From Telmatactis stephensoni (taxonomy: Eukaryota > Cnidaria > Anthozoa > Actiniaria > Isophelliidae), in NCBI GenBank assembly GCA_029948255.1, contig JALIZF010001536.1, positions 62,001 to 126,000 on the forward strand: a stretch of DNA of 64,000 bases, given 5' to 3'. A model generated the notes under the pieces. It did not search any database, was not told the origin of the DNA, and worked only from the letters and a program-made list of their open reading frames with translations. Both the position numbers and the translations under genes were made by a program. Positions 1,506 to 49,000 of the stretch are shown piece by piece. Each line of letters begins with the position of its first letter. Positions within the stretch are counted from its first letter, which is position 1.

Positions 1506-3912
1506 ATGTATAGGATTCACCCGAACTGCTTCAAGAAATCTCTTTTACGCTGGATGTTCCTGGCCGTTCTATTACAGTGCCATCTTACAGGTTCTCAGAC
1601 ACTTTTTGGTTCTACCCATTCCATGCAGAATGCTTATCTTAAAGGCTATACTTTTCAAGTTTTCACAGGAATCACCAGTTATTTTGAGTGTTACATGAAA
1701 TGTCAAGAAGTTGAAGATTGTTTCAGTTTGAATTATCACCCTGCCAAGAGTGTGTGCGAGCTGAACTCTGCTACACATCAAAGTCGTCCAGACAACATGG
1801 TGTACGGGGTTCCACATGCTACGTACGTATTGGACTCCTTGAAGCATCTTCCTGGTAAGTTTATATCAATGAATCACTGTAAACAAAGTTTTCAACAATA
1901 TACTTAATTTAACTAAGAAAAAATAGAAAACTCTCAAATGTGTTCAAAAGGAGGCATTGCCATTTGCTCAAAATAGTCTGACAGAATCTCGAGGGATAAA
2001 ACAAAATCGCACAATGAACTTTTCGAACTTTACTGTTTTAAACGTTTTCTAACTTCTTCCTCTATTATAATTTCTCGTGACTTTGATATTTACATTCACA
2101 TCCACAATAGAGTGTAGAGTAGTTGCCTCTGATGTTTTTACACTATGAAACGTTCAGACTGGAAAGGTTGGCCGGCTTCTTTACTTAGTGTGCGACGTCA
2201 GTTGTCATGCAACTTTCACGTCACATCCTCGACTTCTCACAAGTCTGTGTAACTCGATGTAGGTACCCGTAACAAGCAGCACTGATGGAGGGAGTGTTAG
2301 AAGACGCGCGTACTGTCCGTTTCCTGGAAGAAGTGAAGGAGCACTGACGGGACATCATCATGTACTATTTCCGTTTTATTTTACGAAATAGAATAATTAG
2401 CTATTAGTGGACTAGTATAAGTAATAGCATGTTTTGTAGTGGTATTTGAAGTAGAAATTGTTCAAGTTTGTAAGAAAAATGAAAATAATCGGAAATTTAC
2501 CTGTGAAAAAAAACACAGCAAAAAGAAAGAAAGAGACAAAAACGTTTGCACGGAACCCTGTCTCCATTCGGTATTCAAGGTCATGGCGATGGATGGTCTT
2601 GGTTTGTCACTTCATCAGTGCGGATCCAATTTTTCACGATCAATATATCTCTTCAAAATCAACGGTGACCCCCATTTTTTATTCTCTCATCTTGAAGAAC
2701 TACTTAATATCAACATCCTGATAGTTTTTCACGGAAAATGTACATTTATTTTTCGTGCCGAAAAGCGACATTTTCACCCACGAAAACGACAGAATGCGAC
2801 AATTTTGTTCGAGGCCGTAAGTTGTTGCCTAAAAGAATGACTTTTTTTATACGGCATCTAAATAACGTTTTTAAAACAGATGAATAGTTAGAGAAGCCTT
2901 CTGGTACCTTTTTACTATGTTCAATTTTTTTTATTGGAAAATCAATTTTCGTTCTCTTTATTATTTTGTGCTTCGTGACGGAGGCTTTGCAAAGTGCAAA
3001 ACTGACTTCTCAGCGATGTAGCTCTCGAAATTTTATCGGTGACCCCTATTTTGGAGCTTATTTTATTTGTTTCATGCATGATGATTTAACAGCATGCTAA
3101 ATTACAGTGAATTTTCATTCATTTTGCATTTTCCCGCGAACGTCTTTGAAAAAATGGAAAACCAATCGAAGGTTACTACCTCAATATGGATCATTTGCAC
3201 TTTGCTCGAGCACTGACTTCTAATACTGTTTCTTGTTGTGCTTCTACCAGGTACACATGTAAGATTTCCCGCTAAGAATTGTTCTGCAATACACAATTCC
3301 TTTCCCTTCCTCAAATCTGGCCTGTACTGGCTTGACCTTGATAGAAGTGGTTCTCAGGCTCCTTTCCAGGCCTACTGTGACATGGAGACTGACGGAGGTG
3401 GCTGGACCCTTGTCTGGTCTTTCACATTCAATATGTACAGTCACTATACCAGCGGGGCGAACCATGTGACACCAGTACCGAAAAATCTTTACACCTCTGC
3501 AGATGCACCATCTTCTGACACTCCACCGAGAAATGAAACTGACTTCAATGCTTTGAACTTTGACCTGTGGAAACTGATTGGCAAAGATTTTCTAATCAAG
3601 TCCAACATCAATAATTGGGTTTCCTGTGTCCCAGGTACCGGAAGTCTTGTCACCAAGACCCTTGGAAGTTTGAGCTGCAAGTTCATCAAACAAATTGTAA
3701 CAGAGAAACCAGGCTGTCTCTCTGTTCCAGGACAAATTGGTAAATTGACTCATGGTTTCACATTAGGTAGCCCAAGCTCTGCCTCGAAATTAATGTATTA
3801 TTTTGAAAAGAGTTCGTCGTCAAATTTTCCAACCCATGATCCATGTGTAGAAGGTCGATCATATCAGAAGAAAAACGTCCCAAATCTGCATACTAACATC
3901 TACATTCGGTAA
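1506..3912 (+). CDS. Secreted PAN/apple plus fibrinogen-like domain protein
   Basis: Two exons, 1506-1854 and 3251-3912, joined in phase 1 (CCTG|gtaagt ... ctaccag|GT), give 336 residues. I chose the ATG at 1506 because it is followed by basic residues and a hydrophobic run (about residues 14-30) that looks like a signal peptide; ATG 1557 is an alternative. Residues about 44-105 form a PAN/apple-like module (ECYMKCQEVEDC followed by a later Cys). Residues about 127-176 carry the start of a fibrinogen-like fold with the motifs GLYWLD, FQAYCDMETDGGGWTLVW. The rest is divergent and lacks an obvious calcium site. Families like this in anthozoans are extracellular and are linked to lectin-like recognition, mucus or skeletal matrix; the role here is inference. 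Additional 5' exons cannot be excluded. Confidence 0.75.
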
Positions 3913-7775: not shown

Positions 7776-10700
7776 TTAGTTTGTCAGCTTCTTATAGGCT
7801 TCCCTTTTCATGGCGTTGACTTTGGCTACGACTTTAAGGGCGGGTCCAAGTTTCATTTTCAGTGCAACAACCATGTGTTCTTCTTTGAGTAACATCAAAG
7901 CTTGGCCATCAATCTCTTCACTGACAAAGGCATCGGCGTACTCTTCACAACCGGTTAGTGTTCTGTGGAAAAAATAAGATTTAGTAAACTAACTGTTTTC
8001 TGATCTTTCCCATATATACCTATTTCAAAAAAGGTTGTCGTATGAGAGGCCGCAAGCCTATAAACGCGACTAGACCGAAAAGGAGTATGGGTAGTTGCAA
8101 AATTTCCCTCTCTTTTTTGTATTGGTCTTGATTTTAAAATCAGCAAATGAAGCTCTTTGATGTATTAGGTCATGGCAAGCTGAAGTTGGATTATGGTGTG
8201 GATATTTGTGTGGTTTTATAGCTTTAAGTAATGTTTACCCATGCTTCCTTTCGGGTGAGTCGCGTAGGCTTTTACCGACAACATTTATTGAAATAGGTGT
8301 ATATATATAATGTCGTGCGCCTTCAAAATCAACAGAAATGGGTTTGTGTAACTCTTCTTTCAATTTCTAGACATCAGTTTATAAGATTTATGAGTTGCTT
8401 CACCGTTCCTCTCCATCCTAACAGTCTCAGGCCCTGTTTATATGGAGAAAAGTTGTCTCGCGTTTATATTGAGTTTCGTAAAACCTGGTTCTCGAGGACA
8501 CAGTAAGCCCAACTGCAGTTTTCGCTGGAAAATTAGCGTGCGCGCGCATGTCATGTTTTAGCTGACTCGACGCGGGAAGGCGAGTTATCTGTTTATGTGA
8601 GAAAAAGCTGACTCGCATCCCAGGGTTACCCTACCAGCCGAGACAAGTTATCTCGACCCCGGGCCAAGTTGTCTCGACCAACCGAGACGAGTTAAATGTT
8701 TCATGTAAACGCTAGGTTGAATTTTTTAACAAAGATATCTAGCACGACCATAACACAACAAACCGTTTAACAGTCGAGAAAACTTTGCGGAAACAAAACC
8801 TGTTACCACTCAGTAAAAATATACGTTACAAAGGTTAGTATTAATGTCCATAATAATGTCTCAACTTCGCAATTTAAGTCGACACATTATAATTGTTTGA
8901 ATGGTGGTCATACATTTTGCGAGAACTTTTTTCGCGGGTTTTTAATTTCGCAATTTTTTTGTCAAATTGCTAATTTCGCGAAAATTAGTTGTAACAATAA
9001 GGCCATCATCCTAGCCTATATCTATCTTGTGAGATGTATTCAACGGTCAATTTGGATTCCCATTAGTTGTACATATCAGTTGTTTCTAATTTTGTCCTAG
9101 AGTAGTAGTTTTCGTATGAGTGCGAAACGGGTCGCCCTATGCTATGACTGGGTCAGTACCGTAATGTCTATAAAAACAATTGAAATTCCTGCTTTAGCAC
9201 GCCGTACCGAGCCGTGCAGTGACCGTGCCGTTTTCACAGTCATATAAAATCTGCTCCACTCTCATTGACATTACCACCACCATCAGTATCATCTTCATCT
9301 TAAACATCGTTTACCTTATGTAGTTTGAGACCTGTTCAACATTCCATTTGGATTCTTCTATGTGTTCATATATCCATAGTGGTTCGACTTCGCCACGAGA
9401 CCAGTCAAAGTACATAGAAGGAGCATTGTCTGTAGAACGATTAAGTACAAAATCCATCAAAATTAATGAATTGGAGGGTAGTGATTGGTGAAGAGGATAA
9501 GGGGAACTGGGATAAGAGCAACATGGAGTTGGAGAATGGAGAAGACAAGATTATGGTAGAGGAGGAGGAGGAGGAACAGAAGGAGGAAGAGGAGCAGGAG
9601 CAGGAGCAGGAGGAGAACAAGAGGGAGAGGGAGAAGGAGAAGGAGCAGGAGGAGAAGGAGGAGAGGAGAAGGAGGAGGAGGAGGAAGAGGAGGAGCGGGA
9701 GGAAGAAGAGGAAGAAGAGAAGGAGGAGGAGGTGGTGGTGGTGGAGGAGGAATAGGAGGAGGAGAAGAAGGAGAAGGAGGAGAGGGAGGGGAGGGAGGAG
9801 ACCTAGCTTCTCCATCAAGCTTTTGCTACGAGGCTAGCTTTGCAGAGCAGTGTGAGGACGGGTTTTGTTGGTGGTTCTGGTTATTTTATACAGCTAACAA
9901 CTCTGACAAATGTATAACGACTGTGCTAAACAACAATTCTCAACAACTACTAACACAACTAATCATAAACTACTACCAGTCCTCTATTTATGACTATTAC
10001 TCTGTGAAACAGCTGTTGACACCTAGATGTGAACTACATCTGAATATGCTAATCAAGGACGATGACTCAAAGACTGTTCACTGATATTAACGAACGATTA
10101 TATATCTGAGATTGTCTGATAGCAATAGGAGGTACAAGATAAGAACAGAACTCTATGATAACTTTATGAAAGGATTGTCACTCGGAAATGTGTTAGAAAC
10201 ATTGTTAGAAACATTGGAAACATGTTTTTCAATTAGAATTGTATGTTTCTTCGAGTGTGAATTTTTGCTAGGAAAAATCCGAGCCCAACAACATGTTGGT
10301 GACAACGTCCGCCCCGCGCACGCTCAGCATAAATAACGAACTTCGACCTGTTTGCCACTAGAGCCTTCAAATAGCTCAGTGGTTGAGCGTCGGAAAGGAA
10401 ATCCGAAGGTCGTGGATTCAAACCAAGCTGAGGGCTCGGATTTTTTCCGAGCAAAAATTCACACTCGAAGAAGCATACAATTCTAACTGACAACTATGAT
10501 GTTTCCAATGAAGAGATATAATAACATTTACAATGAGGACACGTCAACTAACTGTCCCCGAATAAGTGTCGTACTGCGCAACGCGGACTGAGTGGTTTGG
10601 TCAGCAGGTCAGCTGAGATGAAAAAGACTAGCTGGACTTGACCCTAGAATAATTTCGGGAATGTCTCTCGACCAATCAGAAACTTGATCGTTATCTTTGC

Positions 10701-13700: not shown

Positions 13701-16700
13701 AATTCATTGACTTGCACTGAAGCATTCACCAATGAGGATTCAACCATGTGGTCCATGTTAACCTAAAACGGTCAGGCCATACAGAATTTTGTCAAACAAG
13801 CATGAATAGCTAGGTAAAAGGATTGTTGAGTGAAATAGATGAAGCTGGAAAAATGGGATTGGTGAAAAGAGGAAGACAAAAATGTGGAAAAGATGAAAGG
13901 ATAAAATAAATAAGAAAGAGAGAAAAGAAGAAAGAAAGAAAGAAAGAAAGAAGGAAGGAAGGAAGGAAGGAAGGAAGGAAGGAAGGAAGGAAGGAAGGAA
14001 GGAAGGAAGGAAGGAAGGAAGGAAGGAAGGAAGGAAGGAAGGAAGGAAGGAAGGAAGGAAGGAAGGAAGGAAGGAAGGAAGGAAGGAAGGAAGGAAGGAA
14101 GGAAGGAAGGAAGGAAGGAAGGAAGGAAGGAAGGAAGGAAGGAAGGAAGGAAGGAAGGAAGGAAGGAAGGAAGGAAGGAAGGAAGGAAGGAAGGAAGGAA
14201 GGAAGGAAGGAAGGAAGGAAGGAAGGAAGGAAGGAAAGGAAGGAAGGAAGGAAGAAGAGAAGAAGCGGAAGGAAGAAGGAAGGAAGGAAGGAAGGAAGGA
14301 AGGAAGGAAGGAACTGCAATAACTTATACAGGCTGTTTTGTGCAGCTAAGAGCTCATGTGGGCCTGTTTTCTCTCACACTTACAACCTCTACATTAAATG
14401 ATTTTGCAAACACTGCTCAACTCACATGTTGATTTTTGTGAGGAAGGAAAATGTGGGAAGGATGAAAAGAGGAAGGAAACAATGTGGAAAAGAATGAGAG
14501 AAGCACTGCCCATGTAAGGTAGGCAAAGATGTTTGGAGGGAAGAGAGTGGGTGTGGAAGGTAGAGGATGGATGGAAGAAGATCGAACATGGGAAGAAAGA
14601 AGGATGAGAGGAAGAACAATACAAAACTTGTGTGGAAAGTAAGAAGGTTGAATGGTAAGAGGATGAGGGAAGGAAGAAAGAAAAGTACAAGGGAGGAAAA
14701 CAGTTAAAAAAGGATGGATAGAAGGGACTCAGGGAGGGAAGGAGGGAGGGAGGGTGTTACAAAGGGGAAGGAGAAAAAAGGGGGATGGATGGAAGGGAAT
14801 GAAAATTGAGGTATATATAGGAAGGAAAGAATGGATGTAATGAGGGAGGGAGGGAGGAAGGAAGGAAGGAAGGAAGGAAGGAAACATAGTAAGGAAGGAA
14901 ACAGTCAGGAAGGAAACATAATAAGAAAAGAAACACAGTAAGGAAGGAACATAGAAAGGAAGAGAGCATAATAAGGAAGGAACATAGAGAAAGGGAGGAG
15001 GAATTGAAGGAAAAAAGGGAGGAATGTGGCAATGAACTATGGTCAGCCGGGTGCAGTCCATGTATAAAATGTACAGTTGTAGGTTACTTACCCACCTCCC
15101 TGGATAAGTAATGAGGAAATAAGGAGGGAAGGGACAGAAAGATAAATAGAGGGAAGGAAGGTACATAGAATGAAAGAAAGAGGGAAATGTAGAATGGAAA
15201 ATATAACAGCAAAACAGGGTACATGTCAAACAGAGTAAATTATGGATAAGGAAAGCACAAAAATAAGGAACAAAGAGAGGAGGGAAGAAAGGAAGGAGAA
15301 AAGAAAGAAGAAAATGATCAATTCTAATTAAGGAAATGGAAAGAGGACCAGAGGTGACAAAACATGAAGTAAAAGGATTTATTTATTGCTTACTTTTGAT
15401 AAAGAGTGAACTGACTTTCTATGACCAGGTATTCCTGGTCTAGTAGCACTAGGGCTCAACAGTTTACCACGGGGACTCTTCATGCGAGCATGATATGCCA
15501 TCATCTTACGAGAACAGCTGACACTATATCGCCTTGCACAAGATGTAGAGCAAAAGCGTCTTGGACCACGCTGGTGATGCACTTCAGTAACATTCCCACA
15601 CTGTTCACAATGGCCAGGAAGATAATTTGAGTCATAGAAAACATCATTGCTCTCATCATTACTTAATGGACTGCCTGGACTGTGGACTACAAGAAAACCA
15701 GTGAATTATTTAACAATAATTAATTAAACCTACAGGTTCTATTGGTGCCTGCAAAATATTGCATGCCTTTTTTACCTTTTTTGTTTGCTTTTTGTTCTTT
15801 TGTTTATGCAATATATCAAAACTGAGTGTGAACATTTTATCAGGAGTTTGAAACGTCAAAAAGTGATGAAAGCATGAGGCCATAGGTCATAGTTTGTTTC
15901 AATTGGTGATCTAGGATTCTATCAGTTCGCTTAATAGTATACATGTAGCAGTTAAAAGCAGGTATAGGTATGCAGAAGGTCTCGATCAGCTTGGATTCTA
16001 AGCTAATCACTCAAAGTTATCACTGAATAATCTTGGCATGATATGAAAGGAGCTGGTTATCAAAATCAATATGTGAGTTGAGCAATGTATGTAGTCTAGA
16101 GTATATCAAATGTAGTGGTAGCAAGTGCGAATGAGCCTTGGAGATATTAGCATTAATGCTACTCTAAAATCTGAAGATAAAAAGATTTGATTTGATTAAA
16201 AGTGTATTTTCATATGTCGCAGTCATCATAAAAGCAAGATCATTTGGTTTGAAATATACTTAAAATTTAATTATACCACAAGTAGTAAATAATCTGCACC
16301 ATACAGTAAGGGGTCAGTTACTGATTTTGTTGACAGCTTACTGTTATCTTACCCACCACTTACATGTCGACCAGCTACCAACTATTTACCAACAACTTAT
16401 TGGCCCTTGTCCTTTACAAACCACTTACCAAAACTTAGGAATCATATATGCACTTACCAGCCCCTCACCTACCATTTACTTACCACTTATACCAACAACA
16501 TACTGACCACTTACAAGTAGGAACCACTTATTGAGCACTTACCAAACACTTACTGACTGTATGGTGCAGATTGTGACTTTTATCGTAAAATTCCATGATC
16601 AAAACTAATGATATCCCTACTGTACCTTCATTGTCAAGTTCCATGTCAATGTCACCATTGTGATCATGGTTTGCATTGCGCAGAGGATCATAGTCATCTT

Positions 16701-19408: not shown

Positions 19409-19967
19409 TGATGTTTTTTGATCACTTACATCTTCTAAAACATGATTTTGCTTCTACAGAGGTGTTAACCAGGAATTAATTCAACAAAAACGAACGAATA
19501 AACCTTTTTTGAGCGGTATTTGATAAAGAAATTTGAGTTTTGAAGTCGACTTTTCTTGAATAAAAGTCAATGGACCAGACGCGAAAAAACGTGTTGTCTT
19601 TGAACAGCGGTTTCTGCCAAAAACGGACAAAAACTTTCTCACAGGGAGGGCCTAAAACAGAAAAAGGAATGATAAATCCACATTCAAATAGAGAAAAATA
19701 TAAAAGCTAACAAAATATGATAAATATGCTACTATTAAAGTGTTTTGATCTTAACAATAAAAATAATTTAGGAATAAAATAATCAAAAAGTCTGCTTGCT
19801 ACATTTTAACTACTTAGCCTACCCCTGACGTTTATCACATGCAAAGTCTTCTTGACTTCTCTAATTTCTTATACTTGGATTTTGCAACAGCTTCGTTTTG
19901 GTTTACAGCAATTCTTTTCCCCTGGAATTTGCTACTAGTTCAAAACTCTTGTGGTAATACTTTTTAC
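19409..19967. promoter_or_regulatory. Head-to-head intergenic region PHC / ribokinase
   Basis: The 559 bp between the PHC ATG (minus, 19408) and the ribokinase ATG (plus, 19968) contain no ATG on the minus strand until beyond 19680 and no repeat that I recognise. Both transcripts must start here or beyond, so this is a likely bidirectional promoter with two 5' untranslated regions. No TATA box was assigned. Confidence 0.55.
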
Positions 19968-21531
19968 ATGAAAATGGCGAGCAGTTGTGAGCAAAATTTC
20001 GATGTTGTTGTGGTGGGTTCGTGTTTTGTGGACATGCTGTGGTATGTCCCTCGTGTTCCCAAGTCAGGAGAAACTCTCCACGCTTCAAAATTCCAGCTCG
20101 ATTTTGGAGGGAAAGCTGCAAATCAGGCCGTGATGGCTGCTAAACTAGGTGCTAAAGTTGCAATGGTTGCTGTGGTTGGAAAGGATAAATTTGGTTATGA
20201 TACCATTGGAAATTTTAAAAGTCATGGGATAAATACTGATTTTATTCATATGGAAGATGGAGGCACAACTGGAGTTACATCAATTGGTGAGAGATGTTAA
20301 GATTCAACTTTAGAAAGTATAGATATACTATATATTTAGAGTGTATTATTTGGAATTTTTAGGACCTTTTTCATTTATTCCATTTAGCTATATTCAATCC
20401 CATGAAGTCTTCATATTCTTTCCACTATATAAACATCCTTAAGCTTAATTACAATTCATTTTCTGTTAAACTTTCTCCCAATTACAATCAATTTCGGTGT
20501 TTAACTAGTCTCATAGTACCTTTTTTCTTCCCAATTTTTCTTATATTTCTCATATTTTACAGTTAATATTCTTTGCTATTTCTACCAGTTAATTACTTAT
20601 AACTCTTTCTTTGTGTAGCTGTAGATGATGATGGCCAACCAGCATTTATTGGTCTAGCAGGATCTAACAAATCAATAACTATGGACCATATAAAACTAGC
20701 AACAGACATAATAAAGTCTTCTCCTATTGTAATATGTGACAAAGGGATCCCTCTTCAAATATCACTTTCTGCTCTTCAATTTTCTAAGGAACTTGGCTGC
20801 CAGACAATCTTCAATCCTGGACCAACATATGAATATTTAAACCCTGTAGACTATACATATATAGACATAATGGTTATTAATGCATTGGAAGGGTATGAAA
20901 TGACAGGAATCACTGCTGATTGTGTGGAGACAGCAAAGGAGATTGTAAAGGAAGTACATAGAAGAGGAACATGTAATGTTGTGCTAACACTAGGAAAAGA
21001 TGGTGCTGTTTGCTTGTCAAGTAATGAAGGTACACATTATATATTAATTATATTATGTAATGATGCAAGAAGTACCACTGGGAATTACCCTTGTCAGTTT
21101 TTAAAAACTTGATTGATAAAGGTTTGGATACACATAGTAAAATATATGCCTACTGGAATATAAGCTTTCCCACTTATACATAAGCTCCCCCTTAATCCCA
21201 CCCCTCCCCACCCCCTCCCCATGCAATTAAGCTGCAATTACCGGTAACAGTATTTAACATTTTTGCACTTTTGGTTATAGGAGAAGAGTACTGCATTTCT
21301 GTTGTGAGTACACAACAAGTGGATGCTGTTGACACTACTGGTGCAGGAGATAGTGTAGTTGGTGCCTTGGGCTACTTCTTGGCATGTCATCCTAACCTTT
21401 CTTTTAAGGAGGCAGTTCAACGAGCTCTTACCATAGCAACAATAACTGTGACATCGCATGGTGTACAGTCAAGTTATCCAAAGAGAGTAGAACTACCTGC
21501 ACATTTGTTTGAAAACAACTCTGATAATTAA
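19968..21531 (+). CDS. RBKS: Ribokinase (PfkB family)
   Basis: Three exons, 19968-20286, 20619-21029 and 21281-21531, joined in phase 1 at both junctions (ATTG|gtgaga ... gtag|CT; GAAG|gtacac ... atag|GA), encode 326 residues, close to the usual ribokinase length. The enzyme phosphorylates ribose to ribose-5-phosphate with ATP in the cytosol. Evidence: N-terminal substrate-side motif GGKAANQA (47-54) with a preceding DMLWYVPRVPKSGET segment typical of the family, FNPGP in the middle, LGKDGAV, and the C-terminal PfkB signature DTTGAGD (261-267) with catalytic Asp 267 and the anion-hole GAG. ATG 19974 is an equally good start. An in-frame ATG at 19839 would add a hydrophobic N-terminus and is less likely. 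Confidence 0.94.
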
Positions 21532-25020: not shown

Positions 25021-25243
25021 ATTGGCTGGCTACCATGTTTATATCAGAGGACAGAGACATGGCTCGCTCAAAAAACGTGGAAAATATTTTATAAAAGCAA
25101 TATAAAACGATCGCTCATGTCTCTGTACTGTGATATAAACACTCTGGAATATATAGAGCACTCGAAAAGCAAGAGAAACACTCGGCTACGCCTCTTGTTC
25201 CTATAAGCTTGCTTTTCTCTTGCTCTACATCTTCCATCGTGTT
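25021..25243. repeat. Foldback element, left part (split by transposon)
   Basis: The segment CAATATAAAACGATCGCTCA ... CTGTACTGTGATATAAACAC has its inverse at 31407-31445 (TATCACAGTACAGAGACATG ... TTTTATATTGCTT). The two halves were contiguous before the 6.16-kb transposon inserted. Further inverted pairs (AAAGCAAGAGAAAC / CTTGCTTTTCTCTTGC) lie near the centre. Confidence 0.82.
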
Positions 25244-25905
25244 TACACCTATTTCAAAAAACGTTGTCATCGCCAAAGGCGATAGGCGATAGGCGATAGG
25301 CGATAGGCTATTCCAAGACCGAGACGCATTATGGGTCTATTGAATTGGATTCCTTCGTTGAGTCAACTATGCCAGCGCCACTGGGCAGAGATCTCCGATG
25401 GAGGGTAATTTGGCTTGTAAATGGTTTAAAATTTTCTTTAGCCGATACGGCATTTATCCTTGGTTTGTCTAAAAGAACCATACAGCGGTTGTTAAGGAAA
25501 TACAGAAACACAGGAGATTTAAATACCGAGACATTGGGTCGACCACGCGGGGCAATAACATTAGCTCCTCGTGAAGAGCTTATCATATTTGAAGCCATAC
25601 TGGAAAAACCAGATATGACACTGGCAGAAATTGTCCAGGAAATACAGCAGCAAACAAACTTTTCCTTTGCTGTGTCTTCACTGCATTACTATTTAAAGCG
25701 TAATGATGTTACACACAAAAAGGTAAGACTGATTTTTAACTGTTAAAAGCGCTGTGTTAATCGCAGGTAATCGGCTACATAAACTAATGTTATTGTTCGA
25801 CGTTCAAAGTTTTGTCCGAAAACATTGAAAACATGCAAGTGCACTGATAAAGCCAAGCCGTGGGTATTTTGAAGTAGCTAGCTGTTTTAGAGCGGTTTTC
25901 ATTGA

Positions 25906-26159
25906 GAGTGATTTCAAAAAGCCCGTGAAACAAAAATTCATAGCTAGTGTGGTTGAATCGACACAAAAGAAAACAAACGGAAAATAAGGTTCATCAGTGT
26001 CTAATTGTCTACTACATAGATGTCAAAAAACCTGTGAAACAAAATCAAATACCTAGTGTGTAATAGTTTAATAAAAACAAAATAAAACAATTATAGTAAT
26101 AAGGTCTAACAGTGTCTATTAGTCTAATAACTATTTCACGGGTATTTTTGAAATCACTC
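25906..26159. mobile_element. Nested GAGTGAT-type MITE in transposase intron 1
   Basis: Left GAGTGATTTCAAAAAGCCCG and right inverse (CGGGTATTTTTGAAATCACTC), followed by TA, mark a 254-bp foldback. Inside, a second related pair (CAAAAAACCTGTGAAAC) suggests an older internal duplication. The left TA is not preserved. Confidence 0.75.
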
Positions 26160-27137
26160 TAACCCGTGAAATGAATATTATTTCCCGTGCTAGAGTAACA
26201 AACTCACATCGAAAAATAGATCAAAAGAACACGTTGTATGCCTAATAGTTGCTTCCCGATCGACTTAAAAATTTGTAGTCCATTTTATGTTTTTTTCTGT
26301 AACTTAATAGGTCCATGAAGTCGCATTGCAAAGAAATGAAGATAGGCGTGCACAGTACTGGTGCAACATTAGCGCTTTTGCACCGGAAATGCTTGTCTTT
26401 TTGGACGAAAGTGGATTTGTAAGTTTTTGCATCAATAAACGTTTACACAGAAAGCATTCGCTTCTTCGTTACTTAATTACTGTTATTTCATGATTGCCAG
26501 GACAAAAGGATACGTCGAAATTATGGCAACAGTTTTTGTGGAACAAGAGCACGCGTTCGGAGACCACATTTGAATTGGGGACCACGGATATCAGCCATTC
26601 CAGTAATTTCTACAGATGGCATTCTGGACGTAGGCATCTACCTGGGGAAATGTCAACGAGGCAACGTTCTTGACATTTGTGCGTAATGTTCTGGCCCCCG
26701 TAATACTTCCCTTTAATGGCATCAATCCACGTTCCGTTGTGATCATGGGTGCGTTCAATTTTAAGACTTAATTCTTCTGACGTTTATTTATTTTTCATTT
26801 CCTCATTATATTTGTAATGCAAACCGCTGTGGAATTGCTTAGATGTTAGACGTGTCGAGAAGGGACTTCTTCCCTAAGTACATTCACTGATCACGCAGGT
26901 GCTGGGAACGGCGTACTCTCGTGTAGTACCCACCACATCCTTATCATTTTTAAACTGTTTTGCTAATGATTTCAAGGAGAAGCAACAAAACAGAAATTCA
27001 GTTTTTGGCACTTTTACAAAGAAAAATGTGTAGTCACCCTATGTAGCTTCTTTCAAAGTGCACTCCGACGGAACAAGAATACCTTCGGTGGCACCCCAGT
27101 TAGAACATTTTCGCTCTTTCCCCCTTTCCTCCCCAAC

Positions 27138-27160
27138 CCCCCCCCCCCCCCCCCCCCCAT
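27138..27160. repeat. Poly-C run in transposase intron 3
   Basis: About 20 consecutive C residues following CCCCTTTCCTCCCCAA, in the intron before the last transposase exon. Likely replication slippage. Confidence 0.9.
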
Positions 27161-27559
27161 TTCAACATTCTGGAGCCATGGATAGAAAGCTATAGGCAAC
27201 TCTGGATACTACTGGGTATCTTTATTTTAACCTCAGTAAATCACTGTTCACTTTCAACAAATCATACATTTCTTGTTTTTCAGATAATGCCGCAATACAT
27301 CATACAAATGCTGTTGTTAACGCCATTAACCAGACTGGAGCTCTTCTAGTATTTCTTCCCCCCTATAGCCCTGATTTCAACCCATGTGAAAATTTATTTT
27401 CGCAAGCAAAAAGCTGGATCAGGGCCAACGATGTTATCTGGCGTCTATGCGATCAGCCTGAGCGAATGGTGTTACACTCATTCTTAAATATAAGTGATGA
27501 TGACGTTAGGAATTGCATAAAACACGGCGAATACATTTAAGGTGGCTTTTTTTATTGAC

Positions 27560-28480
27560 AATGTTTCCGATTTTCACAAATTGAGCAACTTGCTCTTGAC
27601 CAGCCAAAACAGTATTCACAACAGTTATTGGACTTGAATCAAAGTTTATATTTTGGTCTATTTCACTTCTATTTACGTTGCCATAGCGATGGTAAACAAA
27701 GATGGCTGAAATCAATTTTTCTAAAATATCTCTCGAACTCGAGCATCTCTAGACAAGGGACTACATGGGCAATAAACTACACACTAAGGCAAAGAAATTA
27801 AGGCGCAACTCTAAAATTTTTACCAAGCCGTTTTTGAATAAATTACAGACAATAAATTAAAAAATGAAATTTATTGATTAGCTCATTAAGTGATAAGCTT
27901 ATCCTAGTTTAATCACAATGATTTTCCTATCAGTAGATAAACTGACTTCAAGGTGTTTTTTTTTTTGGTCAGTTTCAGTATAATCGGTGTTACCATGGCA
28001 ACGATACCGAAAATAAGGCTGAAATCAGTTTTTCTGAAATCTCTCTTGATTTCAAAGAATTCCAGGCACCCAAATACTATGTAATAATGTACATACCAAG
28101 GTAAAGTAGATAACATAGAATTAAAATTCTTTGATTGAAGTGATTTGGAATAAAGGACCGGAAATTGGAAAACTGATTCGCATTTTTTGTTTTCGCGATT
28201 TATTCGAAAACGGCTTGGTAAATTTTTTTGAATTTAGCATTAATTTCTTTGTTTTAGTAAGTAGTTTGTTGCCCTTATAGTCCCTTAACTAAAGCTGTTC
28301 GAGTTCGAAAGATATTCTAGAAAATTTGATTTCAGCCATCTTTGTTTACCGTCGCTATGGCAATACAAATCGAAGTAAAATAGACAAAAATATAAACTTT
28401 GATGTAAGTCTAACAGCTAATGTAAAAACCGTTTTGGTTGGTCAACAGTAAGTTGCTCAATTCGTGGAATGAAAAACGGA
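27560..28480. repeat. Long foldback between the two transposon genes
   Basis: Arms of about 290 bases (27560-27850 and 28180-28480) are inverse copies with moderate divergence. Shared landmarks are AATTGAGCAACTT, TCAAAGTTTATATTTT, GGTAAACAAAGATGGCTGAA and ACCAAGCCGTTTT. The central 330 bases include a partial further copy (GTTACCATGGCAACGATACCG). It may be a nested element or part of the parental transposon. Confidence 0.75.
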
Positions 28481-28532
28481 AGCATTATAACTCTATTAGT
28501 AATAACGTAACAGTAACAAGATTACTCAACTA

Positions 28533-28695
28533 GAGTGATTTTCATTCGACAGTGAACAAAATATTACTCTTAAGTTGGTAGTAGTCGATAAGAAACAAGA
28601 GATAACTCGTGCAATCCACGAGTTAAAAACAATGGTTTGCAGTGTACTACCAACTATTATTTTGCCCTTCCTTTCACGATCAAATGAAAATCACT
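28533..28695. mobile_element. Nested TA-target MITE
   Basis: The left end GAGTGATTTTCATTCGACAG follows TA 28531-28532; the right end reads GATCAAATGAAAATCACTC. It sits 17 bp beyond the stop codon of the SHOCT-like gene. Confidence 0.72.
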
Positions 28696-28712
28696 CTTCT
28701 GGGAACCCTAGC

Positions 28713-31282
28713 TTAAGACAAGTTTGCCAGTTCTGCCAGCAGTTTGTTTTTTTGATCACTGAATTCTTCTTCGGTTAGGACGTGTTCCTTTTTCAACTCA
28801 GCCAGATCTCTGAGTTGTTGTAAAAGTGTTCCTCGCAATTGTATCTAAATAGAACACGATGACCAAGTTAAATTACTCAGTCAATGCAAAGCTCAAACAG
28901 AAAAGAAAAAGCAAACAAACAAAATATAGTTAAAAACACGAAACCATCTAAAAACAGAACAAAATACAAGCCAGTAATTAGTTTAAATAGTATTGGAGTG
29001 ATTTTCCGTCGTCTGTGTAAGAGGTTGCTTATTAGCTAGTATTAGATAGCCGTTTCCTTTTCACAGACGATGGAAAATCACTCTAAACATGCCTTATTGT
29101 CTTCTTGCGGTGTTTGTTTCCCAGTAGTGGGACCAGTACTAGTGGCGTTAGCTTTACTACAACCATCTTTAAAGAATGAAAATCGAGGAATTTCCTCTTC
29201 ACTTTTATAATCCCCATTGACCTAGAGAACAAAGAATTCTATAGTTATAGCATATAAAGCAATTTATACAATTATCGAATTTCTCAGGTGCACGCCTGAT
29301 CTAGGATCTAGGAGGAGGGGAAGCGACTCGTCACCCCCTTTTTCAAAACTACTAGTTCTTCGTATTTGATTATCCATTTATCTGTTTTGTTTTTGTTGAG
29401 AAAAAAAGGTTAGTACAATCCCCTCCCTTCTTGTGAATCTAAGGACAAGCGCCTGTGTTACTGCGCCTGACCATGCAGTACTGACCATTTACATAAACAA
29501 TTAAACGGATTATTTTTTTCTTGAGCACATTTCCATTTAGGCACTAAACGCCTATATAGAGTGAGGGCATTTAACCCATGAAATAGATTTTTATAGTGTA
29601 GTTGACATAAGTATCACTACGTGCATTGTTTTCCTTTGCTCTGATTAGACATTGACTATTAGATTTAGTCAGTCACGGGTTAGAGTGATTTCAAAAAACC
29701 CGTGAAACAAAATTTAATAGCTAGTGTGTAATAGTTTCATAGCACAAAAGAAAACAATGGAAATAGGGCCTAGCCTACTAGTATCTGTTAGTATTTCACG
29801 GTTTTTTGAATCACTTAGAGGGGTTAATGAAAACCACTGTATGACAATCACTCTAGTCCTAAATAAAAGTCGTTAGATCGACGAGTAACATTTGATTTAC
29901 AATAGTCACGCGTTCTCACGTGCGATTGTGTTGTACAACAACGAATACTGATAAGCCAAAGTCAAGTAAATTAGTAGCTAGTAAAATTGGTTTTAGAGTG
30001 CTTGAGTGGTTACAATAGAGTGATTTTCATCGGACTGTGAAACAATTACTAATAGTCAGTGTTTAATAGTGTCTAATAGTTGTATACGTATTGCAACAAA
30101 AGAAAACAATGGGTGCAGAGTCTACTAGTGTCTATTAGCTTAGTAACTATTTCACAGTCCGGTGAAAATCACTCTATATCCGTGAAAAAGTTAGCGAAAC
30201 TAAATTGTACTAAATAGCGCGAAATCCTTTGTTTTCTACTTGCTTAATTAGTGCAAATTAGTCCAATTTATTACAAAGTTTTTCGCGGATATATTGTAAG
30301 CATTCTTAGAGTGATTTTCATCGGACTGTGACTGAAATAAAAACTAGCTATTAGTGAGTAGTAGTCGAAGTTCGACATAAGGAAAGAATAGAATTAGGAT
30401 CTACTAATGTGTATTGGCTTAGTAACTATTTCACAGTCTGATGAAAAGCACTCTACAATATATCCGTGAAATTGCACTAATTAAACAATAGAAACGAAAG
30501 GATTTCGCGCTATTTAGTACAAATTATAGTTCGCTAACTTTTTCACGGATATATTGTAAGCACTCTAATGCTTGACCCATTTAATCATACATTATGCTAT
30601 TAAACCTAAGTTTTTATTAGCACTGGTCCAATTTAATAACGGAATCTGAATTCAAGGAGAAATCATATCATTCAGTCTTAGCGCGAAGCGGGAAATTTGA
30701 ATAATCAAATTAACTCACCAACAACTTAGCCCACACACGCAACTTAAAATCCGACAATTTCGGGTGTTTTTGTCGTAAACTATTAATTCTTGCGTCAAGG
30801 GCAGAGCTGGTATCGTCGTCTTCGTCTTTCTCTGCAAAAAAAGCAATATTGACTTAGCTTTTTGGATATCTTACAAAGTCTGAAATGCAAGTAACAATAA
30901 CACACTCACTTGTTTGTCGTGCTCTTTTGTTTGAGCTCGAAGCAGATGAGTCAAGGCTGCGTTTATTTGACCTTCCGCTGCATTTGCTTAGCCACAAATA
31001 TATCCAGCCCTTTTTTTCTAACGACAAAGCTTCTCCGAGATGCACCTCATTTATGATGTTGTATCGACGGTTTCCAGGTTGTCCGAAGTATCCAAGCTCA
31101 AATTCTGACTCATGCTTTACGCCCGCTTCCTCCGGGTATTTTGTTACTATAAATTGTTTTAGCTTTAAAACGGTATCGAATCTAGGAACATTCCTTAGTG
31201 GGAATGATTTGTGATGCTTTTTATTGTGTTCGTCAAGAACACGCAAGTCAATGTTCACATGCTCTGCAGCTTTCGACGCCAT
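28713..31282 (-). CDS. Transposon-borne protein with ubiquitin-like N-terminus and SHOCT-like C-terminus
   Basis: Four exons on the minus strand: 31282-30910, 30831-30719, 29221-29093, 28844-28713. Phases agree (1, 0, 0) and the model encodes 248 residues. Three junctions are GT-AG except the third donor, which reads AAG|GCATGT (GC-AG). Residues 1-105 alternate strands and a helix in a way that resembles a ubiquitin-like or PB1-like fold (IDLRVLDEHN, FDTVLKLKQFIVTKYPEE, GWIYLWL). Residues about 108-125 are Ser/Lys/Arg-rich and could be a nuclear localisation signal. The C-terminus (about 213-244) fits the SHOCT pattern: LRDLAELKKEHVLTEEEFSD followed by KNKLLAEL. SHOCT motifs are short oligomerisation or targeting modules in bacteria and eukaryotes. 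The function is unknown; location inside the transposon ends suggests an accessory factor. Confidence 0.72.
28996..29083. mobile_element. Small nested MITE at a splice donor
   Basis: GAGTGATTTTCCGTCGTCTG and its inverse CAGACGATGGAAAATCACTC bound an 88-bp foldback followed by TA 29084-29085. It begins 7-9 bases inside the intron whose donor is the GC at 29091-29092. Confidence 0.75.
29559..29815. mobile_element. Two abutting nested MITEs
   Basis: One copy starts GAGGGCATTTAACCCATGAA after TA (preceded by GAGT) near 29559 and ends around CACGGGTTA (29682). A second starts GAGTGATTTCAAAAAACCCG at 29683 and ends TTTTTTGAATCACT. Both lie in the large intron of the SHOCT-like gene. Confidence 0.65.
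29996..30565. mobile_element. MITE containing two further MITEs
   Basis: The outer element has ends GAGTGCTT ... ACAATATATCCGTGAAA and, inverted, TTTCACGGATATATTGTAAG ... CACTC, flanked by TA. It is interrupted by a copy at 30018-30174 and another at 30309-30453, both starting GAGTGATTTTCATCGGACTG and each bordered by TA. These together account for most of the large intron of the SHOCT-like gene. Confidence 0.72.
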
Positions 31283-31406
31283 TCTCGCCTGCTCTCCACC
31301 TCGTGAAGGTGTTTATATTCATACCCATAGTACTGTGCGGTCTTGGAATGGCCTATCGCCTATCGCCTATCGCCTTTGGCGATGACAACGTTTTTTGAAA
31401 TAGGTG

Positions 31407-31445
31407 TATATCACAGTACAGAGACATGCGCGCACGCGTTTTATA
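31407..31445. repeat. Foldback element, right part (split by transposon)
   Basis: Inverse counterpart of 25093-25140. Joining 25241-25245 (GTTTA) directly to TATCACAG recreates GTGTTTATATCACAG, the exact inverse of the intact left arm. Confidence 0.85.
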
Positions 31446-34420: not shown

Positions 34421-35542
34421 TTATAGGCGCGTGTTTGTCGTTGCAACGGAAATGTCATCTAGAGTACTTTCATTATCCAAACTCAATCTCGAAATTACGG
34501 GGGAGTCTTGCATGGAGCTTTTTCTATTGCGCAGATAAGTTTCCTTTCCTTCCCGAGGTTCTTGACTCCCAACAACTTCTTGTTCACTTTTCTTCTTCTT
34601 AAGGCATCGCATTATGCGTAAACTGTGTATAAATTCACGCCGAAATGTTGGGCTCATTACCCCGTATATTACTGGGTTGGCTACACTGCTCACTGATGCG
34701 AGAAATGTATATGTAACATAAACTTCTCGTGGTGCAGCAAGCCTTCCGACAAATAGGTCAACTAGGTCCACTATTAGAACAGGGGTCCAGCAAACCATAT
34801 AAAATAAAACAATAACAAATAAAGTTCTTGTGACCTTTAGTTCTTCTGTACTGACCGTGTCGTCGGTTTGGTTCTTACCAAAACGCTTGTTTCTTTCGCT
34901 GATCGTTTGGAAGACTCTCACGTAGCAAAACAAAATGATCGTACAGGGAATACCTACATATACGACCACTAACAGCCCTGTGAACCATCCCACATCCTGC
35001 TCTGTATAGCAAAAGAGTTTCCCAGGGTGCCAGACGAACTTGTTTCCACTTGCCAAGTAGATTATTGGAGCAATGATCGATAAAATCCACACTAGAGATA
35101 TCGAGTACAGTGTGCGTCGAGTTGTAAAATATGTACGATACAGAAGGCATTTTACAATTCCAAAGTAGCGATTAATCGCTGTGGCTGCCAATGTTTGTGT
35201 TGAAGCTGCTGCCATTATAATCGCTGCACATCCTTCAATCTGACACACTATGGGTCCATATAACCACTTGGAAGTTACCACTACCGAAAACGTGAGCGGC
35301 ATAGCGAGTATTCCCATTCCTAAGTCTGAAACAGCTAACGAAGTCACGAACATATTTGGTATGGTACGGAGTTTGGAGTTCCTAAAAATCGCTACAATAG
35401 TAAGAACATTGCCAACGATTGTCACCAAAAAGAGAAATCCGAAAATGATACTTTCGACAACAATTTCGGCAGTGTTTCTGGATTGTAGTTCATCAGCGAG
35501 AGTTCCAAGTTGGTCCGCGTTTGTGATCGTGGATGAGTTCAT
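34421..35542 (-). CDS. Rhodopsin-family (class A) G-protein-coupled receptor
   Basis: A single intronless frame of 373 residues with seven hydrophobic segments (about 29-53, 64-87, 98-122, 145-165, 186-208, 239-262, 273-295). Class A landmarks are all visible: GN in TM1 (Asn 45), SLAVSD in TM2 (Asp 73), Cys 100 and Cys 178 for the extracellular disulphide, NRY (124-126) in place of DRY, Trp 152 in TM4, CWTP (251-254) in TM6 and NPVIY (289-293) in TM7. Asn 2 is in an N-glycosylation sequon. The NRY triplet recalls melatonin receptors, but those usually have NAxxY in TM7, so I call only an orphan rhodopsin-family receptor. Intronless receptors of this kind are common and expanded in cnidarians. 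The 53-residue tail is Ser/Thr-rich, offering phosphorylation sites. Ligand unknown. Confidence 0.94.
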   Translation of the reverse strand: MNSSTITNADQLGTLADELQSRNTAEIVVESIIFGFLFLVTIVGNVLTIVAIFRNSKLRTIPNMFVTSLAVSDLGMGILAMPLTFSVVVTSKWLYGPIVCQIEGCAAIIMAAASTQTLAATAINRYFGIVKCLLYRTYFTTRRTLYSISLVWILSIIAPIIYLASGNKFVWHPGKLFCYTEQDVGWFTGLLVVVYVGIPCTIILFCYVRVFQTISERNKRFGKNQTDDTVSTEELKVTRTLFVIVLFYMVCWTPVLIVDLVDLFVGRLAAPREVYVTYTFLASVSSVANPVIYGVMSPTFRREFIHSLRIMRCLKKKKSEQEVVGSQEPREGKETYLRNRKSSMQDSPVISRLSLDNESTLDDISVATTNTRL

Positions 35543-36267
35543 CGTCCTTGATTAGTCATACAAGAGTTAATCGTGATCTTCAAAGATCTGTGTATTTTTC
35601 ACTAGGAAATCGCAATTAATACTTACGATTCATATGAATTTAATATAATTGTGGACCAAGCATCGATGTGTTAAATAGTCATCTTCAATGATACGCCAAT
35701 AGCGTGTCAATATATCCGCCTCTATAATGTATCTAAATGAAATTTGAATATTCAGAATTTGATTATACTTTCCCTTATTAATTATAAAAGGCCTATTGAG
35801 AAACAACAAAGAAATAATTTAAGCCAAAAATTAGTTAGTAAAATGAGGGTTTTTAAGAAAAAAATATAGAAAAAGCAAATAGAAGGGGAACTGACATACT
35901 TTTTTTCAAATAAAATAATAATTTTCGAGGAAAAACAACAACTGATGAAATCGAAAGGCAACATATATTAATCAGTAATTTTAGTTCAGATACTTCTTTT
36001 GTTATATATATCTTCAATCGGTTCGTTTATTTAATAAGGCACCTTTTGGTCCTTTTGACTTTTTGTTTTGATATAACTTTTAATTTTGTTTATTCAGAAT
36101 TCATACAAAAAGAACTTTAATATCGTGTAGCTGTTTGTCTTTCACCTATAATACACATATTTCTTATTGACTTTCCGTGCAGGTGAGAAATAGGTGGATT
36201 AATAGAGTTACACGTTCGAGCATTCACGTGGAACCCGCGGGACACACCCGCAATCGACACCAGCGAC

Positions 36268-46000: not shown

Positions 46001-49000
46001 TGAACAATATCTCTTATGTGCTCCGTTTTGGAAAACATCACAAAGATCCTAACAAAGAGGTTTTGATAGTGCTGAGCCAGGAAACCCTCTATGACATAAA
46101 AAAATGAATTTGAAGTTTTTATGCTATCAACTATTTTACAACACTTGATACTAATCTTGCAATCTGATTGGTTGATTAGAGTGTGTCAATAAGAGGACAG
46201 ACACACTGTTGACGCGTTTTAGCACATGCTCATTCTGTTACCCCAATTAATGAAAAGGACTTTTTAACTTTTATCTCAAATAATTGTTGTAAAAAACAAA
46301 TTGAAGATTGTTTTGAGTTGTCTGTCCTCTTATTGACAAACTCTTGATGTCATAAAATGTTCAAAACTCAAGTGGAATCATGAGTGCACGTCAAGAGTGT
46401 GTCAATAAGAGGACAGACAACTGAAAACCATCTTCAATTTGTTAAATATACATTTGTATCATTAGTTGATAATAAGATGATGTTGAAAGAAATTTAAGAA
46501 ACTTCTCCATTAGAGAACATACATATAATAGAAGTTTCTTAAATTTCTTTCAACATCATAACCATACATGTAGATGGTGATTGATCATATATACAGTGCA
46601 CGTAGAAGGTTTTAATAAATGGTGTCCACCAGTGATCAATCACCATCTACATGTATCACTTCTTTGTAAATCTGACTTTGGTACATTGTAGCAATAGTAC
46701 CTTTGAAATAATATGGTACCAAGAAAAGCCCAAAAGAGACTCATTCATTTGGGCTTTTCATTTCTTCTTTAGGCTAAAATATGTACATGTAACATAATTA
46801 TAATTTATACATGTATGTGAAGTTGTAAAATTGCAGATCATTTACCTTTCAACTTCAATCTTATTGGAATTTCCACTTTATTCTTGGCATATATTCTGTT
46901 GAGCTTGGTTGAAAAGGTCCAGGATGTTGCCTTTACCAAGGGCAAGCGTTCAGGTTCAAATCCAATGTCAAACTCAAACTCACCAGGGATATTATCTCTC
47001 GAGTGTAAGAGAGACATTGCAGGTAAGGTAATTTGGTAGAAAGTTGGCAAAAGTTGTGGTGATTGTGGTGGCCGTGGTAGAATCACTTGTTGTTGACCTG
47101 CTGCATTCAAGTTTTGTTGCTCCTGTTAAAAATACATTACATTTTAATAGGACCAAAGTCAAAGCTTTCTTCCATACTGAAGCAGAACTTACACTGTAGG
47201 TTATGGCTAGAAACTGGAAAGATACTGTACACATAACTCATGTAAGATTTGACTATAGGCAGAGTCTGAGAAAATGCAGATGTGAAAGGCGAGGAACTAT
47301 TGTGATATGTGAGGTATACATGTAGGTACATACAGTACATGGATGTAGTACTTAAACATACATCTACAATTACAGTGAATTTACAATGCACTGACAATTC
47401 TGCATTCATGTGTCTTACTTGTCCCCTTAAACAATATAATTAAATATAGTCTGAATGTTAATTTGTATCAATAAATTAATGTTGTCGGTATCAAGCCTTG
47501 TGTACTCACCCAAAAGGGAGTATAGGAAGTTATAATTAAAAACCACAAAAATTTCACACTATTGTAAACTCAAATTCAGCTTGCTCTGACCTTATACACT
47601 AAAGAACTTCACTTACTGATGCTGAAGTCAATACCAAAGCGAAAAAGAAAGTGAAACTTTGCTACTACCCATACTCCTTTTCAGTCTAGTCACATGGGTT
47701 TGAGAGCTCTCACATGGCAACCTTTTTTGAAATGGGTGTATACTGATCCATCAGGATCATCTGGCAATATTTCAGTTTTTATTGCATAAATTATTAATTT
47801 GAGTGATTTGAATTCATTCTACACATACAGTGTAGTGCTTGCAATTCCATGCAAGCAGAAGTGCAGAATCAAAAATGACATGAATCTTCTGATTTTCAGA
47901 TAATCAGGGCTGTCAACTCTTCCGGATAATCCAGGAGTCTCCAGATTTTGGATCATATCTCCCGGTCTCAAGATTGGCCCCTGAAATCGCCCAGATAATC
48001 GCTTGAATCCTGGAATCGTGGCCATTTTAACTGAAATATCATCTTCTTTCTTGAAATATCTAATTCCCCCCCCCCTCCCACTAAGGCATGAAAATCAATC
48101 TCGGAAAAAGCACGGTGAAGCCTGGCATACGTTTTGTCTCTCTAAAATCAGATGATCAACAACTGTACTTTTAATTTCAAAATATGCAAGAAACAAAGAA
48201 TTTAAAAATGTCACAGCTACAAAAAATGTTTGAAATCATATTTTAAAGAAAATGACACAAACCTGGTGTAGGACATTGTGGAAGCTTTGATCAAAACTAG
48301 GATGTACAGGAAATTCTGACAGGTCATTGGACATGACACCCTCACTAGTGGAACTTCTACTTGCATTTTGGAAGAGCTCCTGCATGTTTATGAATTTAGT
48401 ATACAATTACAATTTAGTAATGTATTGTAAAATACTTATTATAATAGAGTCATTTTCGTATGAGTGGGAAACTTACCGCGCCGTACCGTGACCGTATCAG
48501 TGCCGTAATGTCTATAAAAGCATTCAAAATTCATGCCATAACCGTATCGTATCGTAACCGTACAGTGTTCCCACTCATACAAAAACGACTCTATAAAATA
48601 ATTATTATAAAATACAAATGTAAAAAATAATACACTTCACTTAGCTTTATTAGTTATTATATGTACCTGTCCACTGTTGGAATTTAACATTTCTGCAATT
48701 AAATAAATACAATAATTACTTAATATAAGAAGTATGTTTTACAGACTATGTCACTGTATAAGATGGATGTAAAATAATGATGAATATAGAAATCTCTGAC
48801 ATTGTTGCTGCATTGGCTTTGTTACAGATTTTTGTTCACTTCATCAAAAAATGATTTTAAAAATGCCCCAATGGTGATATGCAAAACTAAACTGATGTTG
48901 GCCTAATGGTATGCATTCCTTAGTAATCTTTTCCAAATTACCAACAATTCAATATCAAGTACAAAGTCTTGCATGCATCCAGCTACATGAGAAGAATACA

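Follow-up and report, generated by a model that had tools for sequence, protein, structure and literature searches.

Does a long, intron-rich DNA transposon of a sea anemone carry two genes of its own, or does it bring two unrelated genes together by accident? The question is raised by a stretch of 64,000 nucleotides from Telmatactis stephensoni (contig JALIZF010001536.1, positions 62,001 to 126,000), which was analysed as a whole and is called the window; all positions are those of the window. From its letters alone, the original prediction had described an element with TA-flanked ends, a DD34E transposase gene with three introns and a second spliced gene on the opposite strand, and had suggested that such an element, with its two genes convergent, would form a lineage of its own. 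Each of these features was recovered, and the gene pair recurs between inverted ends in divergent copies. The region 25246..31406 (6161 bp) very probably represents a lineage of two-gene DNA transposons found in corals and anemones. The lineage belongs to the ITm (IS630-Tc1-mariner) hyperfamily, and its second gene, ORF2, would be the partner of the transposase.

Structure of the window copy

Both genes lie within a single pair of ends, and each begins ~124 bp from one of them. The terminal arms (25244-25304 and 31348-31408) are 98% complementary over 61 nt, the flanking TA on both sides included. The following features were delimited:

25244..25245, no strand: left TA, target-site copy
25246..25304, + strand: left terminal inverted repeat, with outer block CACCTATTTCAAAAAACGTTGTC followed by GGCGATA heptamers; similar ends occur in miniature inverted-repeat transposable elements (MITEs)
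25316..25335, + strand: left inner end motif AGACCG...ATGGG (element position 71, 4 differences to the motif)
25369..25722, + strand: transposase exon 1, helix-turn-helix part
26311..26418, + strand: transposase exon 2, first catalytic D (LDESGF)
26501..26748, + strand: transposase exon 3, one-base frameshift at ~26642
27284..27540, + strand: transposase exon 4, second D and E, stop
28713..28844, - strand: ORF2 exon 4, SHOCT-like tail, stop
29093..29221, - strand: ORF2 exon 3, donor AAG/GC (GC-AG intron or decayed site)
30719..30831, - strand: ORF2 exon 2 (DFKLRVWAKLL)
30910..31282, - strand: ORF2 exon 1, PB1-like domain and basic linker
31324..31343, - strand: right inner end motif (position 64 counted from the right end, 5 differences)
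31348..31406, - strand: right terminal inverted repeat
31407..31408, no strand: right TA, target-site copy

The transposase gene comprises four exons on the + strand (321 residues), separated by GT-AG introns of 588, 82 and 535 nt. With an X placed at the frameshift, its product matches DDE_3 at E 1.3e-27 (96.9 bits), and the catalytic spacing is DD34E by counting. Because of the frameshift, the window copy is unable to make an intact transposase. A second copy of the element (contig C724; 96% identity over 611 nt, then 90% over 765) has no frameshift at this site but has a stop, and a stretch of ~140 bp of window intron 1 is missing from it. The sequence at its break (L009 2740 onward) resembles what we take to be a Penelope-like element.

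ORF2 comprises four exons on the - strand (~248 residues) and lies at the opposite end, convergent with the transposase gene. Its splicing is mirrored in the Acropora millepora gene model P0178, which aligns with exons 2-4 and the end of exon 1 (54/151 identical, 36% over 151 aa; E 6e-25, computed with a database size set by the analyst).

The host repeat at ~25120-25142 has TCTCTGTACTGTGATATAAACAC in common with the joined flanks (the flanks in reverse complement); the transposon was therefore inserted at a TA into a pre-existing inverted-repeat element. This host element, with TGTTTATATCA...CAGAGACATG arms, occupies 25036-25245 and 31407-31444, and its opposite arm mirrors the empty site.

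Recurrence of the gene pair

The 483.5-Mb assembly holding the window (G000:C415:62001-126000) was searched with single exons. ORF2 exon 1 gave 67 matches and transposase exon 4 at least 132 (150 of 341 candidates scored). ORF2 is multi-copy, not the unique host locus which the original prediction had named as the contrary case. For the pairing test, the 67 ORF2 matches were compared with the first 74 transposase matches (to E 1.7e-7); among the other 58, mostly ordinary-looking long frames, none was seen by eye within 9 kb of an ORF2 match. A convergent transposase match within 9 kb was found for 33 of the 67 ORF2 matches and one in another orientation for none, with ~0.05 expected. At E <1e-20, 29 of 37 transposase matches were paired with ORF2. 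Six of the eight unpaired ones were re-read with 1.5-kb flanks (C133:335908 and C384 were left out), and four of these (L075, L080, L084 and L085) showed convergent ORF2 exons. Many matches are near-identical pairs, possibly haplotypes, so that the independent loci are fewer. ORF2 exon 4 alone, too short for a good search, gave five matches, one of them convergent with a weaker transposase match on C435.

ORF2 exon 1 also occurs in inverted pairs spanning 0.9-3.8 kb (C110:742076-744298, C125:577868-580095, C432:262346-266111, C47:45662-46527 and C547:141879-143285). These are possibly derivatives with the start of ORF2 in their arms and no transposase match.

Delimited relatives and short copies

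Within 1.5-kb flanks, a transposase was found beside ORF2 at 8 of 29 loci. Ten larger stretches were taken, six because a transposase had already been seen beside ORF2 and four without that criterion; both genes were present in eight, including two of the latter four. Seven relatives could be delimited (2504, 2871, 2796, 3453, 2731, 3730 and 4140 bp). TA adjoins both ends in each, and all have inverted ends, a DD34E transposase and a convergent ORF2 at the opposite end; an eighth, L051, has the inverted repeat, its exact ends not being set. Great length, put forward as a trait of the lineage, is not one, the delimited relatives measuring just 2.5-4.1 kb.

The ends are built of a block like CACCTATTTCAAAAAACGTTGTC on the outside, a spacer that varies (tandem repeats in some) and an inner block like AGACCGAAAGGATCATGGG. 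The inner block was found within 7 differences in 15 of the 16 ends searched, a loose threshold at which weak cases are uncertain. In the window copy the spacer is the GGCGATA heptamer array, which also occurs in MITEs elsewhere in the genome. The end gave at least 71 matches in the assembly (from 40 of 293 candidates scored), most of them outside full-length elements, and the six short copies examined are MITEs of 254-260 bp with neither transposase nor ORF2. The left end follows TATA except in L015 (AATA), the right flank of L010 is not TA, the boundary of L012 was set one base short, and L014 and L015 look like one site seen twice. A majority of end-bearing copies without ORF2 had been named beforehand as speaking against the two-gene reading. 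Taken literally, this is what was found, but as evidence against the pair it was rejected, since the six MITEs lack the transposase as well. No second pair of ends around ORF2 alone was noted in a self-comparison (inverted hits ≥20 nt, span >1.5 kb), which was not designed for that purpose.

Selection and parallel divergence

ORF2 exon 1 shows signs of constraint by purifying selection. The ratio of non-synonymous to synonymous substitutions (dN/dS) was 0.27 for L031/L032 and 0.13 for L019/L044 (dS 2.6, close to saturation). Larger subfamilies are ~0.6 identical to one another, with dN 0.26-0.29 and a dS that could not be computed; pairs with few changes scatter, mostly between 0.00 and 0.48, many with a dS of zero.

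Among eight elements, the distances for ORF2 exon 1 are correlated with those for transposase exon 4 (r 0.79, as high in 47 of 40320 permutations); minus one close pair, r is 0.45 (105 of 5040 permutations). C342 entered this comparison with only 45 residues of transposase exon 4. By either protein, the element closest to the window is C342, and C316 stands near C410. With the close pair excluded, divergence is 0.44-0.73 for ORF2 exon 1 and 0.24-0.52 for transposase exon 4.

Relatives of the transposase and shared introns

Among the best 120 of 3173 protein matches, P0002 is 55% identical to the transposase over its full length, and P0003 (Exaiptasia) is 79% identical over 55% of the query. 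P0002 passes the NCBI IS630 model NF033545 (115.4 bits, cutoff 100); in a PDB sequence search it gave weak SETMAR matches only (E 0.025). In a quick tree of 121 sequences (the window and the 120 matches), the window falls into a set of eleven with support 98, made up of nine sequences of the anthozoan group, the window included, and two unnamed ones; a tenth of that group, P0120 (Dendronephthya), stands outside on a long branch.

The intron positions recur. By eye, the A. millepora gene model P0005 skips exactly window exon 2, and the Actinostola model P0075 joins at the start of window exon 4. The delimited relatives have splice-site letters at the three intron places of the window, at those exon edges that were detected. 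No exon 2 was detected in L047, L048 or L050, and L046, L047, L050 and L052 lack exon 1 or retain fragments of it; L049 and L054 have all four exons, free of internal stops.

The ORF2 protein and its link to the ends

A search with the window ORF2 brought up a single protein relative, P0001, which stands for a cluster of 13 sequences (E 0.001); with P0001 added to the search, 59 proteins were listed at E ≤10. An ISKN or PISK motif, reading through the same terminal sequence, is present in 41 of these (P0133 to P0177, with gaps), in which no ORF2 match was visible by inspection. The motif stands in frame ahead of ORF2 in P0001, P0125, P0126 and P0128, and by eye likewise in P0123 (AILKNVV). Since TATACACCTATTTCAAAAAACGTTGTC translates to YTPISKNVV, ORF2 most likely abuts the same transposon end in P0001-type proteins, as read from the proteins alone. 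Translated in three frames, the end yielded no word of four or five residues that occurs in the 120 listed transposase proteins, so that the link to the ends in other sources comes through ORF2 alone. In its tail, P0001 contains the 23 residues with which the A. millepora models P0178/P0179 begin. These models supply exons 2-4, and the source of P0001 is presumably Acropora. Of the listed matches with a species name, those closest to either protein come from anthozoans (Exaiptasia, Acropora, Pocillopora).

ORF2 exon 1 is predicted to adopt the PB1 beta-grasp fold; the first model had a predicted local distance difference test (pLDDT) score of 69.3 and was followed by a deeper model from alignment A3. 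The PB1 domains of p62, NBR1 and Par6 are close structural neighbours of the modelled domain. In Pfam, neither the window ORF2 nor P0001 matched the PB1 family at E ≤1; ORF2 gave a sub-threshold SHOCT match and a still weaker GvpG match. The PDB sequence search with ORF2 gave nothing solid (5nb9, E 0.061), and no matches were found in the viral, bacterial and phage collections.

Classification and comparison with known systems

Tc1/mariner-type elements are the textbook one-protein transposons. The present family shares with ITm elements a DDE/D transposase of the DDE_3/IS630 type (DDE_3 in the window, IS630 in P0002) and TA target-site duplications (in the window and the seven delimited relatives, the empty site being mirrored in the host repeat). 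It departs from Tc1/mariner in the strict sense, usually single-gene, by the second gene in the same eight elements. Because P0002 passes the IS630 model and the HTH_Tnp_Tc3_2 score of the window transposase (12.7 bits) is far below the cutoff of 31.5, 'ITm, DD34E, IS630-like' would be a safer name than the designation 'Tc1/mariner-type' in the original prediction. With the IS630-like/ITm DD34E elements (Tc1, Gambol and IS630 groups) the family has DDE_3, DD34E, a helix-turn-helix N-terminus, ~321 aa and TA target copies in common, and it differs in three introns at fixed places and the second, convergent gene.

A single ORF is the norm among autonomous ITm elements (PMC8533490), so that the one-gene rule assumed at the outset stands as the usual case; multi-gene relatives are nevertheless described in ciliates. 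TBE and Tec combine a DD34E transposase with extra genes, in Tec with one ORF in the complement, and these encode a zinc-finger/kinase protein, an unassigned small protein or a recombinase (PMC7325037, PMC12242761). A 2025 paper calls the TBE accessory proteins surprising (PMC12242761). Compared by descriptions only, these elements differ in their ciliate hosts, and no PB1-type protein is mentioned for them in the available text. HvSm elements (Hydra, Schmidtea) are partly cnidarian and likewise have DD34E and TA copies; by description, they measure 1.7-2.8 kb, with no second gene mentioned in the available text (PMC7325037). Two papers on MITEs deal with piggyBac-related MITEs in corals (PMC2872659) and with Gambol MITEs (PMC3212995, nothing decisive for the present family).

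PIF/Harbinger elements resemble the present family in their two-gene layout, congruent gene histories and a faster diverging second protein, which there binds both transposase and ends (PMC9179366). They belong to another transposase superfamily, and their helper is Myb/SANT, here PB1-like. Plant MUGB proteins are domesticated Mutator-like proteins. A PB1 domain is joined to a transposon-derived gene in them too; it lies on an additional exon within the one protein and was probably captured (PMC8616336).

Beyond TBE and Tec, no other multi-gene ITm element was found in the literature searched. None of the open-access titles and abstract starts searched describes an anthozoan ITm element with two genes or a helper of PB1 type; an unpublished or repeat-library entry may exist. 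The family is real and recurrent, and structurally it is a new variation on a known type of transposon, with ORF2 as a putative helper.

Interpretation

Several observations weigh against a two-gene lineage. No transposase match lies within 9 kb of 34 of the 67 ORF2 matches (with 150 of 341 transposase candidates scored); ten of the 34 form the five inverted pairs resembling non-autonomous derivatives, and the other 24 are unexplained. Weaker transposase matches are seldom paired (2/9 to 1e-16, 2/21 to 1e-10, 0/7 of the last). L053 and L055 have ORF2 and an end, but the 7 and 6 kb read there yielded no convincing transposase (in L055 a single match of 14 residues, E 0.041). The nearest transposase relatives of the window, L057 (C19) and L058 (C702), are 71% identical in exon 4, degenerate and probably two haplotypes, and no ORF2 was found in their 1.5-kb flanks. 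The C724 copy is cut off in intron 3, only its left half being present. Given these results for C19/C702 and C724, only the window copy shows both genes within its closest subfamily. Finally, three L041 pairs have a dN/dS of 1.4-1.7, on a dS of 0.019.

In a two-gene lineage, the transposase would cut and paste at TA. The PB1 domain of ORF2 may oligomerise or bind another protein, its basic linker may carry the protein into the nucleus, and ORF2 could help to gather the transposase on the two-part ends, by analogy with the Myb-like protein of Harbinger. Evenly balanced, in our estimate, is the further-reaching proposal that transposition in this anthozoan lineage strictly requires two proteins, a polymerising one of PB1 type and an IS630-like transposase, which join on bipartite ends with exchangeable spacer repeats as docking sites; this would be an animal counterpart of TBE and an independent case of the Harbinger strategy.

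It is rather unlikely that ORF2 takes no part in transposition and is directed at the host instead, where its PB1/ubiquitin-like domain might, for instance, block silencing or degradation. Host signalling and autophagy adaptors make use of PB1 and ubiquitin-like folds, and the modelled neighbours p62, NBR1 and Par6 would suit such a role. The greater divergence of ORF2 exon 1 is antagonist-like, but exon 4 is a conserved part of the transposase, and the Harbinger helper, whose role is known, also diverges faster (PMC9179366). Very improbable is a passenger origin of ORF2, by a single capture of part of a host gene: there is a precedent in the PB1 domain probably captured by the Mutator-like precursor of MUGB genes (PMC8616336), but a passenger fits poorly with 67 mostly divergent matches, convergent pairing, the exon structure in A. 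millepora and the signs of purifying selection, and a captured host gene was dropped given these multi-copy, often paired matches. That a one-gene DD34E transposon was invaded by another element bearing ORF2, as the nested hairpin elements of the window copy might suggest, is scarcely credible with both genes ~124 bp from a single pair of ends, and was dropped once seven delimited elements had repeated the arrangement.

On the two-gene reading, a diverse and apparently constrained animal lineage allows tests of why certain elements acquire a helper, and supplies a PB1-type protein for transposition studies. The annotation of coral repeat families and of 'uncharacterized' coral genes (e.g. LOC122951088) would change.

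Nested sequences and neighbourhood

One further feature lies between both genes:

27572..28469, no strand: 898-bp inverted-repeat sequence, probably a nested element

Several hairpin elements with TAGAGTGATTTTC-like ends, some overlapping or nested, lie inside introns (25902-30558), and one of this type adjoins the donor site of ORF2 exon 3. Together with the 898-bp inverted repeat they make up, by addition, ~2 of the 6.1 kb. Elsewhere in the window, two short non-autonomous elements with related ends (8017-8299 and ~47480-47738, the latter with a degenerate left end) carry, by eye, an inner block like AGACCGAAAAGGAGTATGGG. A long purine-rich tandem repeat at 13900-14320 has open frames on both strands. 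The host gene pieces are a PAN-domain exon (1254-1904, + strand), a fibrinogen/COLFI-like exon (3217-3909, + strand), two pfkB-type kinase exons (19818-21112, + strand) and a rhodopsin-type receptor in a single open frame (34424-35551, - strand).

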